36,065 nucleotides of DNA from a virus. A program made the translations under genes and the position numbers. The stretch is from positions 1 through 36,065 of the IMG/VR virus record IMGVR_UViG_3300028569_000091. One strand, given 5' to 3'. The notes beneath the pieces are model-generated. The model ran no database searches, was not told the DNA's origin, and saw only the letters and a list, made by a program, of their open reading frames with translations. Of the stretch, positions 2,493 through 19,516 are shown piece after piece; within the stretch, counting starts at the first letter, position 1; the number at the start of each line of letters is the position of its first letter.

Positions 2493-4454
2493 ATGGCATT
2501 CAAACTAAAACTTAAAAGGGGCACTGCGGCGCCTTCAAATACAGCTTTAGATGTCGGGGAACCAGGTTTTGATAGTACTGGTAAAAAACTATATATAGGT
2601 AACGGATCTGGTGTAGCAGCCAGTGGCGTTTCAATGGATGGTCACGCGCACGCTGCGAGTGATGTCACAAGTGGTGAATTCGATATTGCAAGAATACCCA
2701 CAATTACAATTGCAAAAGGTGGAACAAATATTACCACGTATGCAACTGGTGATATTCTTTATGGTTCAAACACAAACATTTTATCTAAACTAGGAATTGG
2801 TTCAACTAATCAAGTATTAACAGTAGTTGGTGGCATTCCAGCATGGGCAGCAATTGGAGCTGCGGCATCGGTAGCAAATAGCTTAACAGTTAAATTTGAT
2901 ACTGGTTCAACAGAAGGCACAGACTTATATACATATAATGGTAGTGCGGCGAAAGCATTCGATATTAAAGCAGGTAATGCTATTACTATTGGAAAAACTG
3001 CTAACAATATTACTATAAATCATACAGATACAAGTTCACAAGCATCTGTTACAGCAAGTAGCAGAACATATGTTACAGGAGTAACTCTTGATACTTATGG
3101 TCACGTTACAGCTTTAACAACTGGAACTGAAAGTGTTGTCGATACAAATACAACTTATTCTATTTCAGCTGAAACAGTAGCTGGTGGTGCAAATCTTAGA
3201 TTGACAGATTCAGCAGCAGGAACAGACGATGTTAAATTTGCTTCTGGAACTGACATCACAGTTCTAAGAACAGACGCAAATACAATTACATTTTCTCATA
3301 ATGATACTTCTACAATTACAGGTCAACAAGGTACAGCCGGTGTTTCATTTGTTACTATTGATGGAAACGGTCACGTTACCGCAGTTGGAACTGCAACGTA
3401 TTTAACCGCAGAAGTAGATACTTTAGATACAGTAACTGTTCGTGGTGCATCAACTTCTAATAATATTACAGTTGGAGATATTGCCGTTAATGGTGGCGAT
3501 ATTACTACCAATCAAGCTACATTTAATATTGGTAATACAGCAACTTCAACACAAACAATTAATTTAGGAACTGCGGCTACTGCAAATACTAATACTAAAA
3601 CAATTAATATTGGTACTGGTGGCGCATCGGGTTCTACTACAAACATTACTGTTGGTTCTACAGTAGCCGGTACATTAACTCTTAACTCACCTACTGTTGT
3701 AATTCCTGGAAACTTAACTGTTACAGGTACTGTTACTACAAATAACGTAGAAACAGTTTCTACAAGTAACGGTGTTGTCTTTGAAGGAAGTGCGGCTGAT
3801 GAAAACGAATTAACATTAATAGCCGGAGTTTTAACAGCTGACAGAACAATTACATTACCAGACGCAACTGGAACCGTTGCATTAACAACTGATTTACATA
3901 CTCGCTCCCACACAATGACGAGCACATCAGACCATACTGCTGGAAACTGGAAAGTATTCCACTCTAACGGTTCTGGTCAAGTTGTTGAATTATCATTAGG
4001 AACTTCAGGACATTACTTAAAAGCTGGTGGAGCTGCAGCAGCCCCAACATTTGCTCAAATTGCATATTCTGAAATTAGTGGAACTCCCACAATTAATGAT
4101 GCAACACACACTATTGCCGGTACAGCAAACGTTATAACGGTAACAAACAGTGGTGGTACATTTACTGCTAATAAGGCAACTGGAACAACTGATACTCTTA
4201 CTTTAGCCGCAGCCTATGGTGATACAATTAATCCATATGCCTCTAAGACTGCAAACAATGTCTTAGCAGCACCAAATGGTTCAAATGGCGTACCAACCTT
4301 TAGAGCTTTAGCTTTAGCAGACTTACCAGCAATTTCATTAGATAATTTATCTGATGTAGTTATTACTACTCCAGCAACTGATTCCTTATTACAATATAAC
4401 GGAACAAACTGGATTGATATTCAAGAATTAGATTGCGGAACATACGCTAGTTAA
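2493..4454 (+). CDS. Tail-fibre protein
   Basis: This encodes 653 residues, with GGAGAGTGA upstream of the ATG. The N-terminus (AFKLKLKRGT, then DVGEPGFD and KKLYIGNG) is the short attachment-type domain of many phage fibres and is nearly repeated at the N-terminus of the next gene. After it come GGTN-type and ASDVTSGEF linkers, long Thr/Asn/Gly-rich beta repeats (TINIGTGG, TITVGS-like), and near residue 430 the FEGSAADENELTL and DRTITLPDATGTVAL motif shared with the first gene of the window. The last 100 residues (ALADLPAISLDNLSDV) resemble a fibre tip. No enzymatic motif and no Gly-X-Thr collagen repeats are seen. It should assemble as a trimeric, extracellular host-recognition fibre. Its TGCGGC-rich codon use is like that of the neighbours. 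Confidence 0.82.
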   Translation: MAFKLKLKRGTAAPSNTALDVGEPGFDSTGKKLYIGNGSGVAASGVSMDGHAHAASDVTSGEFDIARIPTITIAKGGTNITTYATGDILYGSNTNILSKLGIGSTNQVLTVVGGIPAWAAIGAAASVANSLTVKFDTGSTEGTDLYTYNGSAAKAFDIKAGNAITIGKTANNITINHTDTSSQASVTASSRTYVTGVTLDTYGHVTALTTGTESVVDTNTTYSISAETVAGGANLRLTDSAAGTDDVKFASGTDITVLRTDANTITFSHNDTSTITGQQGTAGVSFVTIDGNGHVTAVGTATYLTAEVDTLDTVTVRGASTSNNITVGDIAVNGGDITTNQATFNIGNTATSTQTINLGTAATANTNTKTINIGTGGASGSTTNITVGSTVAGTLTLNSPTVVIPGNLTVTGTVTTNNVETVSTSNGVVFEGSAADENELTLIAGVLTADRTITLPDATGTVALTTDLHTRSHTMTSTSDHTAGNWKVFHSNGSGQVVELSLGTSGHYLKAGGAAAAPTFAQIAYSEISGTPTINDATHTIAGTANVITVTNSGGTFTANKATGTTDTLTLAAAYGDTINPYASKTANNVLAAPNGSNGVPTFRALALADLPAISLDNLSDVVITTPATDSLLQYNGTNWIDIQELDCGTYAS

Positions 4455-13678: not shown

Positions 13679-13930
13679 ATGGATTATACAAATCGCAAAT
13701 ATGTTATATTTAACGTATCAGAACTAAACAAAATTAACTTTCCAGAAGTCTTAGAAACCTCTGCAGAAACGGTCCGCAAATCAGTAAATGGACAAAAAAC
13801 ATTTGTAAAATGGGAAGGCGAAGCACCAGCTTCAATCCAAACCCTCACAACAAAATCTAAATACTACACACACGAAGAAATACTCAACATACTCTCCGGA
13901 GAGGAATGGAATGCTCCGTTAGAGATTTAA
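13679..13930 (+). CDS. Conserved-looking small protein of the second fibre unit
   Basis: This encodes 83 residues with GAGGTG upstream of the ATG. It contains YVIFNVSELNKINFPEVLET, a KTFVKWEG segment, and a C-terminal YTHEEILNILSGEEW. It is soluble and mixed alpha/beta in appearance, without cysteines or membrane segments. I recall proteins of this type beside tail or fibre genes in other environmental phages but know no function. It is the first gene after promoter P2 and directly precedes a fibre gene, so it may be a minor virion component or assembly helper. Function unassigned. Confidence 0.7.
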   Translation: MDYTNRKYVIFNVSELNKINFPEVLETSAETVRKSVNGQKTFVKWEGEAPASIQTLTTKSKYYTHEEILNILSGEEWNAPLEI

Positions 13931-16891: not shown

Positions 16892-17575
16892 ATGAAATTG
16901 AATAACGGTTCTTTAAAATTAAAAGGTAGTTCTTTAAAAAATTTTACTATTTTTTCTTCTAATATTACTTTAGATTTTGCTTATACTAGTAATCAATGGA
17001 TTTTTAGCATTGAAAATATTGATCAAAGTGTTCTAGTGGATTTAAATGATGGTTATGAAATGCAAATACAATTAGTTAGATATCAACCGGCATCTTCAAA
17101 AAACAGAAGAACACCAAGGGCAACTTATATCGGTCCGAGTCCATCATTTGTATATAAAGTAAAACCATCTTTTCCTAATTGGATAGGTATAAACGGAGAT
17201 ACGTTAGACCCAATATCAGCAGATAAAAAAGCCAGAATAAATATAAATTCTCAATTAAATGTTAATCCATTAAGCATAGATTTAACTACATGGGTTAATA
17301 ATATGATTAAATATCAAGGTCGTAAGATAAATTCCACTTTTCATAGATTTAAAGGATTATTCGCTAATGTTTTTGGTGATTTGAACAATGAGGGATTTGA
17401 TAGTAGTGGATTTTGGTTTTCAAAGTTTAGGTTTATTATTTTAATTAATAACAGAAAGTATGGTTTAACAAACAAAGAATTAATTATTAATTATTATAAT
17501 GCTGGTAATATATCATCAAACATTATATCAAATGTAGTTCAAACATCAAATTCAATTTCAATTAATGTGTCATAA
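16892..17575 (+). CDS. Unrecognised 227-aa protein
   Basis: A strong AAGGAGG site precedes the ATG. The N-terminus (KLNNGSLKLKGSSLKNF) resembles a short beta docking element and recalls the start of the 15998 gene. The rest is rich in Asn, Ser and Ile with beta-type patterning (WIFSIENIDQSVLVDLNDGY, then WFSKFRFIILINNRKYGL). A Lys/Arg-rich middle contains SSKNRRTPRATYIGPSPSF. There is no transmembrane helix, cysteine pair or catalytic motif. Codon use is more AT-rich than in the fibre genes. It may be a virion-associated protein, but I cannot assign a family. Confidence 0.65.
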   Translation: MKLNNGSLKLKGSSLKNFTIFSSNITLDFAYTSNQWIFSIENIDQSVLVDLNDGYEMQIQLVRYQPASSKNRRTPRATYIGPSPSFVYKVKPSFPNWIGINGDTLDPISADKKARININSQLNVNPLSIDLTTWVNNMIKYQGRKINSTFHRFKGLFANVFGDLNNEGFDSSGFWFSKFRFIILINNRKYGLTNKELIINYYNAGNISSNIISNVVQTSNSISINVS

Positions 17576-17577
17576 AA

Positions 17578-17661
17578 AAATTCTATAAAAACTGTTTGAA
17601 ACGGATTCGGTTAGTCTGCTGTCCAATATAGTTTATTATATTGTAAGTTTTTATAGAATTT
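17578..17661 (+). repeat. 84-bp hairpin element with a 16-bp perfect outer stem
   Basis: A + AATTCTATAAAAACT (17578-17593) pairs perfectly with AGTTTTTATAGAATT + T (17646-17661). Inside is a second hairpin, CAATATA (17624-17630) with TATATTG (17637-17643), and a GC-richer segment around 17600-17623 that could form a small third arm. There is no T tract after the stem, so it is not a standard terminator. It fills the gap between two genes and ends 10 nt before a GAGGTG site. It may be a structured RNA, a leader, or a small mobile palindrome. The pairing is certain; the role is unknown. Confidence 0.7.
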
Positions 17662-17682
17662 AATTAACAAAGAGGTGAGATT

Positions 17683-17967
17683 ATGGCAGAAAAAGACCCA
17701 CGTCTCGAAAGAGCTGGAGTAGAAGGTTTTAACAAACCTAAACGTACGCCTAAACACCCAACTAAGTCACACATCGTTGTGGCCAAAGAGGGGAATAAGG
17801 TAAAAACTATTCGCTTTGGTCAACAAGGTGTAAAAGGATCTCCTCCACGAGAAGGCGAATCTGAAGCAGATAAAAATAGACGTAAGTCATTTAAAGCACG
17901 ACATGCAAAAAATATTGCTAAAGGTAAAATGAGCGCGGCATACTGGAGTTCGCGTGAAAAATGGTAA
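17683..17967 (+). CDS. Small basic conserved phage protein
   Basis: This encodes 94 residues with GAGGTG upstream. It starts AEKDPRLERAGVEGFNKPKR, then TPKHPTKSHIVVAKEGNKVK, TIRFGQQGVKG, and ends KSFKARHAKNIAKGKMSAAY plus WSSREKW. I recognise this pattern as a family found widely in environmental phages, often near other tiny Lys-rich genes. It is strongly basic and has no cysteine. The KSFKARH region recalls nucleic-acid-binding segments. Function is not established to my knowledge. The end overlaps the HNH gene by 7 bp. Confidence 0.8.
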   Translation: MAEKDPRLERAGVEGFNKPKRTPKHPTKSHIVVAKEGNKVKTIRFGQQGVKGSPPREGESEADKNRRKSFKARHAKNIAKGKMSAAYWSSREKW

Positions 17968-18596
17968 AAATTATAAATGATAAAGTTAATTTAGTTGATA
18001 ATAGATTTTTAGCTACTTGTGTTTGTGGAAAAATTAATAGTTATTCTGCTAAAGAAAATGCTTTAAATATGTTAAATAGAAAAACTTGTGCTTATTGCTC
18101 AGAAGACTATAGAAATAAGAATATTCAGCACTTTAATATATATCTTAATGAAAATAAAAAATGGTGTTCTAGATGCCCAAAATGTAATATTGAGCAAGCA
18201 TACACCAGAAGAAGCCATGCGGTAGAAAGTTCCAGAGATGAAAAACATTGTAAAAAATGTGCTCAAGCTCTTGGTAAATTTTCTAAGAGTAATAGCGTTG
18301 GAGATAAGACAAGAATATATAATAAGTTTTCAAAGTCTGCAAAAAGTAGAAATATAGAATGGAATCTTACCGAAGAAGAAATGTTTGAAAATTATAATGG
18401 TCAATGCTCATTAACAGGAATGCCATTATCATTGAAATATAAAGAAACTACCACATCACTAGATAGAATAGATAATAATTTAGGTTATCTTAAAGGAAAT
18501 ATTCAGTGGGTTCATATTAAAGTAAATATGATGAAACAACAATACACACAAGAAGAATTCATCGAAGTGTGTAAATTAGTTGCTAAGAACAACTAG
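17961..18596 (+). CDS. Free-standing HNH-type endonuclease
   Basis: This encodes 211 residues and starts inside the last codons of the upstream gene. Two cysteine-pair zinc ribbons are visible: CVCGK...CAYC (about 20-45) and CSRCPKC...CKKC (about 70-100). The C-terminal third carries NGQCSLTGMPL, SLDRIDNNLGYLKGN, IQWVH and MKQQYTQEEFIEVC. This is the layout of phage HNH homing-like endonucleases, where the SLDRIDN..GY..GN...H region is the metal-binding nuclease core. The gene looks more AT-rich than its neighbours, suggesting recent arrival. It nicks or cuts DNA, probably to spread itself into related phages. The nuclease family is firm; homing is inferred. Confidence 0.85.
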   Translation: MVKIINDKVNLVDNRFLATCVCGKINSYSAKENALNMLNRKTCAYCSEDYRNKNIQHFNIYLNENKKWCSRCPKCNIEQAYTRRSHAVESSRDEKHCKKCAQALGKFSKSNSVGDKTRIYNKFSKSAKSRNIEWNLTEEEMFENYNGQCSLTGMPLSLKYKETTTSLDRIDNNLGYLKGNIQWVHIKVNMMKQQYTQEEFIEVCKLVAKNN

Positions 18597-18606
18597 AGGT
18601 GAAATT

Positions 18607-18726
18607 ATGTGCAACTGTGAAACATGCAAAAATAAAGAAACTTGCACTTGCGAAACTTGTGTAGATTGCGAACTTTGCAAAGTAGAACCAAATCACGTTT
18701 GTGAATGCGACTGCTGCAAGGAATAG
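18607..18726 (+). CDS. Cysteine-rich microprotein, metallothionein-like
   Basis: This encodes only 39 residues, 12 of them Cys and one His. The ATG at 18607 has AGAGGTG upstream, overlapping the stop of the HNH gene. Cysteines are arranged as C-x-C (2/4, 13/15, 32/34/36), C-x-x-C (4/7, 15/18, 18/21, 21/24) and C-C (36/37). The rest is mainly Glu, Lys, Thr and Asp, with no hydrophobic core or membrane segment. This composition is that of metallothioneins, which wrap Zn, Cd or Cu in thiolate clusters. No match to a named family is claimed. It lies among tiny basic phage genes, four nt before the next start. Metal binding is inferred strongly from composition; its use to the phage is unknown. 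Confidence 0.75.
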   Translation: MCNCETCKNKETCTCETCVDCELCKVEPNHVCECDCCKE

Positions 18727-18729
18727 TTT

Positions 18730-18867
18730 ATGATACGTAAGCAGGGAAAACAATATGTTCTTATGAGTAAAGATGGTTCCCGCAAACTAGGAACCTTCCC
18801 CTCACGCAAACAAGCAGAAGAACGTGAAAAACAAATAACTCGTATTAAGTACGCAAAGGGTGGTTAA
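18730..18867 (+). CDS. 45-aa basic protein
   Basis: This encodes 45 residues between the cysteine-rich ORF and the next small gene; it starts 3 nt after one stop and ends 1 nt before the next ATG. It reads IRKQGKQYVLMSKDGSRKLG, then TFPSRKQAEEREKQI. This beta-hairpin plus helix (V-L-x-S-K-D-G-S-R-x-L-G-T-F-x-S-R-x-x-A-x-x-R) resembles a pattern common in tiny phage proteins. Its strongly basic, Arg/Lys-rich make-up suggests nucleic-acid or virion contact. No function is known to me. Confidence 0.7.
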   Translation: MIRKQGKQYVLMSKDGSRKLGTFPSRKQAEEREKQITRIKYAKGG

Positions 18868-18868
18868 T

Positions 18869-19051
18869 ATGGCAAAGAAAGCAAAGTCTCGTGTAAACGA
18901 AGCAGGCAACTATGACAAACCAACGATGCGGAAAAGATTATTTAATAAAATAAAAGCAGGCTCTAAGGGTGGAGACCCTGGGGAGTGGTCCGGGCGCAAA
19001 GCTCAGCTATTAGCCAGAGAATATAAAAAAGCTGGTGGAGGGTACAAGTAA
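18869..19051 (+). CDS. 60-aa basic conserved phage protein
   Basis: Start chosen at the ATG 18869; an in-frame GTG at 18860 lies within the previous gene. The product reads AKKAKSRVNEAGNYDKPTMR, then KRLFNKIKAGSKGGDPGEWS, ending in GRKAQLLAREYKKAGGGYK. I recognise this as a small, highly conserved family in environmental phages. It is Lys/Gly-rich with one predicted helix (ARKAQLLAREYKK type). Function unknown; capsid or DNA association has been a natural guess because of charge. Its stop shares a base with the next ATG. Confidence 0.8.
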   Translation: MAKKAKSRVNEAGNYDKPTMRKRLFNKIKAGSKGGDPGEWSGRKAQLLAREYKKAGGGYK

Positions 19052-19194
19052 TGAATTACTATTTACCAAATGGAAAAGAATATAAAGGAAAAATGCACAA
19101 GATGCCAAACGGTACAATGCATACAGGCGCAACACATACAAGCGCCAGTAAGGTTCTTTCTACAAAGAAACCAGCTATGAGAGGTGGTAGATAA
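19051..19194 (+). CDS. 47-aa basic protein with TGATHT motif
   Basis: This gene is translationally coupled to the previous one through a TAATG overlap. It reads NYYLPNGKEYKGKMHKMPNG, then TMHTGATHTSASK and a basic tail. The pattern Y-x-x-P-N-G-x-x-Y-x-G-x-x-H-x-M-P-N-G with T-G-A-T-H-T is one I recall from small conserved phage proteins. Three of its four His residues lie close together, so metal binding is possible. Function unknown. Confidence 0.72.
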   Translation: MNYYLPNGKEYKGKMHKMPNGTMHTGATHTSASKVLSTKKPAMRGGR

Positions 19195-19277
19195 TGCCAT
19201 ATAAAGGTACAGGTTACGGCGGAAAAGGTAAAGCACCTAAGATGCCAATGCCACGTAGACCACGCGGACGAGGATAG
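19194..19277 (+). CDS. 27-aa Gly/Lys/Arg/Pro-rich peptide
   Basis: The ATG shares its A with the TAA of the preceding gene. The product begins PYKGTGYGGKGKAPK and ends in PRRPRGRG, with almost no hydrophobic residues and no acidic ones. It is very short, but its tight TAATG coupling and close spacing to the next gene (2 nt) on both sides support real translation. It probably is disordered and binds nucleic acid or an acidic surface. Moderate confidence only. Confidence 0.5.
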   Translation: MPYKGTGYGGKGKAPKMPMPRRPRGRG

Positions 19278-19279
19278 TT

Positions 19280-19516
19280 ATGGCGAAGAAGGCTTCGCAA
19301 CGGTCACTTGATGACTGGACAAAACAAGAATGGACAACTTCTGACGGCAAGCCTTCTAAAGGTAAGAAACGATATCTACCTAAGAAAGCATGGGAATCTT
19401 TAAGTGCGGCTGAAAAAGCAGCAACTAACAGAGCCAAGGCCGCAGGCAATCGTAAAGGAAAACAGTTTGTAAAACAACCTGAAAAGATTGCAAAAAAAGT
19501 AAGCAGATATCGTTAG
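19280..19516 (+). CDS. 78-aa basic conserved phage protein (DUF5872-like)
   Basis: The start is ATG at 19280, two nt after the preceding stop. The product reads SQRSLDDWTKQEWTTSDGKP, then a basic KKRYLPKKAWESLSAAEKAA stretch, and ends KGKQFVKQPEKIAKKVSRYR. The pattern (S-L-x-x-W-T-x-Q-x-W-x-T-x-x-G-K-P-S ... R-Y-L-P ... K-G-K-Q-F-V-x-Q-P) fits the family I remember as DUF5872, found in phages and some cellular genomes. Function unknown. It belongs to the cluster of tiny basic genes 17683-19516. The DUF number is from memory. Confidence 0.78.
   Translation: MAKKASQRSLDDWTKQEWTTSDGKPSKGKKRYLPKKAWESLSAAEKAATNRAKAAGNRKGKQFVKQPEKIAKKVSRYR

Follow-up and report, generated by a model that had tools for sequence, protein, structure and literature searches.

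A cysteine-rich phage microprotein gene beside an HNH endonuclease is a candidate metallothionein-like metal buffer

Results

The window analysed here is a single stretch of viral DNA of 36,065 nucleotides (IMG/VR record IMGVR_UViG_3300028569_000091). Directly 3' of a gene for a homing-type endonuclease it contains a 39-codon open reading frame (Table 1) whose translation product, MCNCETCKNKETCTCETCVDCELCKVEPNHVCECDCCKE, carries Cys at positions 2, 4, 7, 13, 15, 18, 21, 24, 32, 34, 36 and 37 and His at position 30. Translation and inspection of the sequence confirmed the frame, the coordinates, the Cys and His counts and the AGAGGTG ribosome-binding site given in the first-pass annotation, and the spacings named there were counted as four CxC, five CxxC and one CC. 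The product is 31% Cys, with a mass of 4.4 kDa and a pI of 4.6. It contains no Phe, Trp or Tyr and few hydrophobic residues, which bears out the earlier remark that no hydrophobic core is left. The compositional features of the metallothionein class (low mass, about 20-30% Cys or more, CxC, CxxC and CC spacings, few or no aromatic residues) are all present in it. The DNA of the gene shows internal GAAACnTGy repetition.

Table 1. Coordinates of the features discussed; positions refer to the window unless a contig is named.
Feature	Position	Strand	Remarks
Conserved 94-aa gene, phrog_7595	17683..17967	+	E 2e-41; left flank of the insertion
HNH/endonuclease VII-like homing-type endonuclease, 211 aa	17961..18596	+	phrog_3322 E 4e-25; phrog_3118 HNH E 2e-18
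Insertion, HNH gene and Cys-rich gene, approximate extent	17965..18729	+	against the empty site in the closest relative, L082
Leader AGAGGTGAAATTATG, Shine-Dalgarno-like site and start codon	18595..18609	+	overlaps the HNH gene stop
Cys-rich microprotein gene	18607..18726	+	39 codons and TAG; 39 aa, 12 Cys, 1 His
45-aa gene	18730..18867	+	right flank of the insertion; 89% identical in L082
Conserved small-gene run: 60 aa (phrog_17747), 47 aa, 78 aa (phrog_14910)	18869..19516	+	profile matches, relatives
Prophage microprotein, contig L188	678-803		
Prophage microprotein, contig L193	~2277-2098	-	
Prophage microprotein, contig L230	10056-9922	-	

The AGAGGTG site lies at 18595-18601, 5 nt ahead of the ATG. 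The complete leader was found four times in the window at up to two mismatches, where 0.13 occurrences were expected and none of the shuffles reached four. All four copies stand at gene starts, at 13679 (+, 83 aa), 17683 (+, 94 aa), 18607 (+) and 21885 (-), the three other than that of the Cys-rich gene with one or two mismatches. The common leader AGAGGTGAnnnTATG, which occurs on both strands (13667, 17671 and 18595 on the plus strand, 21897 on the minus strand), is, judging by this placement, a phage-specific translation start motif. Cysteine content was compared with two backgrounds. Simulation of 60 windows that matched the trinucleotide statistics of the real one gave roughly 15,500 ORFs of 20-60 codons, each with at most 8 Cys, and a single ORF among 16,604 simulated in all reached 30% Cys. 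The remaining genes of the window hold 45 Cys in 10,873 codons (0.41%), with 11 of the 45 contributed by the HNH gene, and against this rate the Cys content of the 39-aa ORF has a P of about 6e-20. Since the leader is common to other gene starts and the Cys content of simulated and background ORFs is far lower, the ORF is a real gene and the probability of its arising by chance is negligible, as the first reading of the sequence had supposed. An ORF that is short and internally repetitive, that is absent from all relatives examined and that has no detected homologue might instead be a chance or decaying frame that lies where the HNH insertion joins the tract and yields no product. The simulations and the Cys background, the recurring leader and the exact fit between two genes all speak against this explanation, which we consider scarcely credible.

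The neighbourhood of the gene shows how it probably arrived. It had been described as part of a tightly packed run of small genes; it does fit exactly between two genes, but the conserved run itself exists without it. The closest relative found is L082/L162 (IMGVR_UViG_3300043436_001304), with a 78-aa protein 99% identical to that of the window. There the 45-aa gene begins directly where the 94-aa gene ends, at 3440-3460, and the HNH gene and the Cys-rich gene are both absent. The HNH gene was found at 0 of 90 loci carrying a homologue of the 94-aa gene, and scans for Cys-rich ORFs gave no counterpart of the 39-aa ORF in the loci fetched by its neighbour genes. Because both genes are missing from the closest relative and the HNH gene from all 90 loci, the two evidently make up an insertion, about 0.76 kb long and specific to this lineage, that lies outside the conserved small-gene run. 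Such an arrangement would fit a mobile homing-type endonuclease that carries a small cargo gene or has landed beside one. In L054, which is related more distantly in this tract, another Cys-rich ORF occurs (MCAKCGCGCKSGKPAKGCKCTCATCKSAKKKK, 3246-3344) that differs from that of the window, and the tract can therefore host such genes independently. In L054 this ORF is followed by MCATCGCMKPKDKHG... at 3347-3487, within a small-gene tract like that of the window. An inverted repeat with 21-nt arms (90%) 52 nt apart occupies 17573-17666 of the window, just before the 94-aa gene, and a similar stretch lies ahead of the 94-aa gene in L082.

We next consider known protein families. The profile comparison with metallothionein families that the first-pass annotation had proposed gave no match in Pfam, NCBIfam or PHROGs at E values up to 10, including the Pfam and NCBIfam comparison with PF02069 (SmtA/BmtA), and no Pfam zinc-ribbon profile matched the ORF. 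The PDB sequences likewise gave no match at E up to 10 for the ORF, for a 24-mer or for a profile of the viral mini-peptides described below, a soft negative because short Cys-rich queries score weakly. A tblastn search of cultured phages, weakened by the low-complexity filter, returned no match to the ORF. Long-form Cys patterns applied to all of IMG/VR matched only chance or low-complexity ORFs and no second 39-aa form. The ORF found no match in the whole records of 50 related phages, a search that is uninformative because it misses the known mini-peptides as well. The designation metallothionein-like thus stands for composition and Cys spacing and is not supported as a statement of family membership. 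Among the open-licence papers searched, none describes a phage metallothionein; the earlier statement that a phage-borne protein of this kind is unusual is correct for annotated families and this literature, but comparable, smaller peptides proved to be widespread in uncultivated viral contigs.

These mini-peptides were found by scanning IMG/VR with the patterns M-C-x-C-xx-C...C-x-C-xx-C and M-C-x-C-xx-C...C-x-C-x-C-C; all counts given are lower bounds. The set comprises at least 75 loci with at least 45 distinct peptides and at least 53 distinct DNA sequences. The peptides have 19-24 residues (one has 27), nearly all hold 9 Cys, Cys makes up as much as 47% of the residues, and their architecture is M-C-x-C-xx-C-x-C-x(2-7)-C-x-C-x-C-C. 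Examples are MCNCKECNCGTSCECTCCNC (L243), MCECKQCECESCNCSCCEC (L242), MCGCDNCKCEKNCGCDCCCG (L259), MCNCEKCNCNGKCGENCKCDCCKK (L227) and MCGCDVCACTQDCNCGCCCWEE (L357). By their conserved neighbours the loci sort into several groups, and they lie beside phage genes, among them those for a T4-type portal, terminase large subunit, major head protein, holin (phrog_3427) and thioredoxin. In one group the peptide precedes an NAD/FAD-dehydrogenase-like gene, often with a holin-like gene just upstream; a second has a PorP/T9SS-like context (assigned by eye); a third follows an SbcCD-like recombination gene; and the group of L357 adjoins the thioredoxin gene. No mini-peptide matched Pfam, PHROG or NCBIfam, and DNA searches of their regions against cultured phages gave weak, chance-level matches only. 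Most other matches to the Cys-rich patterns (e.g. L192, L218, L225 and L339) were set aside as apparently antisense or low-complexity. Long CCCD-type repeat ORFs (MCCCDMCCCDTCCCD...) of at least 366 residues also occur in viral contigs (L183 from 2702, minus strand; L274 from 6910, plus strand).

A slightly narrower pattern had 11 matches in about 85,000 bacterial and archaeal genomes. Ten were dropped as low-complexity or out of frame, and the one clean cellular member found, MCECDKCECTESCDCKCCDC, is flanked by chromosomal genes in a Cytophagales MAG (L417, 2512-2574); a search of 291 Cytophagales genomes gave no further true member. Conservation of the Cys residues in this set is no evidence, because the scan pattern demanded those positions. 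The features independent of the pattern are the final x-Cys, the stop directly after it, and synteny. Among the matches listed, the final Cys ends 32 of the 45 distinct peptides, and the second pattern did not demand this final x-Cys. The pN/pS ratio at non-Cys codons, pooled across divergent groups, was 0.8-1.0, so that the ratio alone does not show selection and is weak evidence of constraint at most. The mini-peptides, apparently undescribed so far, form a separate lead, supported mainly by recurrence at the same place in many contigs. A hairpin follows 10-19 nt past the stop in L243, L253, L345, L360, L346, L401 and others, with the constant core GATTCATAGCC and a 4-bp stem that covaries (GTCC/GGAC, GCTC/GAGT, GTTC/GAAC, GTCT/AGAC, GACT/AGTC). 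It is present at 24 loci of one mini-peptide group, lies farther from the peptide in L234 and L266, and had no Rfam match in five loci.

The relation of the window ORF to these peptides was evaluated with a profile built from 22 of them. The ORF scored 54.7 bits over two overlapping stretches (residues 1-18 and 13-38), compared with a mean of 31.7 bits for its shuffles, 0.1% of which reached 54.7. When the Cys residues were held fixed, 6.8% of permutations scored as high; the non-Cys residues therefore add nothing significant, convergence is possible, and we rejected a reading in which homology to the mini-peptides is proven. Each of the six Cys in residues 1-18 coincides with a Cys position of the mini-peptides, as happens in 5.6e-4 of shuffles, and the combination of an MCxCxxC start with a CxCxCC end, a mini-peptide trait, is found in 1.2e-4 of shuffles. 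The single-module form (19-24(27) aa, MCxCxxCxCx(2-7)CxCxCC) does not describe the ORF, which has 39 residues and lacks Cys9 and Cys17. The window ORF and the mini-peptides are likely of the same architectural kind, and the ORF perhaps corresponds to one and a half to two mini-peptide modules.

A second set of microproteins bears on the main competing explanation. The prophage-like contigs L188, L193 and L230 encode proteins of the form MCxCxxCKxxA-CxCxxC-x5-C-x7-CRWVRIGGKK, those of L188 and L193 being 80% and 66% identical to that of L230, and none matches Pfam, PHROG or NCBIfam. Their early spacing, MCxCxxCK-x3/5-CxCxxC-x5-C-x7-C, is common to the window ORF up to Cys32, a likeness that is suggestive only, because the search pattern demanded the first part. 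The prophage proteins run from this spacing into CRWVRI and look like a folded domain. By the same token the product of the window ORF may be a miniprotein of the zinc-ribbon or zinc-knuckle type, in which one or two Zn ions have a structural role and which acts on a specific partner (host RNA polymerase, the ribosome or the adjacent HNH enzyme) instead of buffering metal. It holds a CxxC...CxxC...HxC arrangement, and the HNH protein just upstream has 11 Cys, in zinc-knuckle-like pairs. On the other hand, 12 Cys in 39 residues with CxC and CC runs, no aromatics and few hydrophobics leave little to fold round one zinc; the ORF ends in CECDCCKE in place of the CRWVRI tail; and the HNH relatives found (about 40% identity) have no Cys-rich neighbour. 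A zinc-binding partner protein is the main rival, and we judge it unlikely.

Discussion

We propose that the Cys-rich ORF is an accessory phage gene acquired with the HNH endonuclease and that it encodes a metallothionein-like metal-thiolate microprotein serving as a metal buffer in the infected cell, a reading to which we give a probability of roughly 0.6. It rests on composition, Cys spacing and the wider viral pattern. A metal-thiolate cluster is the best fit because the product is a hydrophilic 39-mer with twelve thiols, no core and no signal peptide; to our knowledge, metallothioneins stripped of their metal lack a predictable fold. In the proposed mechanism soft d10 ions, Zn2+ or perhaps Cu+ or Cd2+, would be enclosed as a cluster by the 12 Cys, possibly with a contribution from His30. 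If the peptide resembles known metallothioneins in this respect, up to about four Zn or Cd ions, or a larger number of Cu(I) ions, might be bound. The cytosolic peptide would then buffer Zn- or Cu-type ions during infection, for example by holding zinc or copper freed by the dismantling of host proteins or by envelope leakage. Judging by its strand and by its position among tail-fibre and other small genes, the gene may be expressed late. We infer the binding of metal itself as well as the identity of the metal, the timing and the benefit.

The same thiols could instead make the product a redox buffer, a radical scavenger or a disulfide-rich peptide that binds no metal, and the thioredoxin gene adjoining one mini-peptide group points in that direction. 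The dense CxC and CC spacing, however, suits metal clusters better than disulfides, the peptide is expected in the reducing cytosol because it has no signal peptide, and metallothioneins inside cells carry metal by default. We regard a redox function as improbable.

Taking the metal-thiolate reading beyond the single ORF, we put forward tentatively, and at a little short of even odds, that environmental phages of several groups encode virus-centred, unannotated metallothionein-like buffers, ranging from a module of 19-20 residues with 9 Cys up to the 39-residue, 12-Cys form that resembles two overlapping modules. With the other viral Cys micropeptides, the finding is of more interest than the window ORF by itself. 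If these peptides bind metal, viruses own metal buffers, trace-metal handling would be part of infection biology, and the catalogue of viral genes would gain a function. The peptides would be among the smallest genetically encoded metallothioneins and easily synthesised; most have fewer than 25 residues, and the length cut-offs of gene callers would tend to miss them.

It is plausible that the window ORF works like a metallothionein while lying outside every named metallothionein family compared. Like the bacterial SmtA/BmtA proteins (Metallothio_Pro, PF02069) it is small, presumably cytosolic and Cys-rich, with CxC, CxxC and His, and by analogy a role in Zn, Cd or Cu buffering is presumed for both. 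SmtA has about 55 residues and a zinc-finger core, whereas the window ORF has 39 residues, 31% Cys, no aromatics, no such core and no profile match. The fungal copper metallothioneins of the Neurospora crassa type, with about 25 residues, dominated by CxC and with nearly no hydrophobics, resemble it in being very short and CxC-rich; their Cys register differs, the PDB gave no sequence match, and the ORF is viral. The prophage proteins of L188, L193 and L230 share C-x-C-xx-C-x5-C-x7-C and Lys8 with it at 38-43% identity, mostly at Cys, but belong to other phages and have RWVRIGGKK as C-terminus where the window ORF has ECDCCKE. The viral mini-peptides (L243, L227) are, like the window ORF, phage-encoded and thiol-dominated from an MCxCxxC start to a CxCxCC end, and differ in having about half the length, a higher proportion of Cys (up to 47%), conserved synteny and a home in other phage groups.
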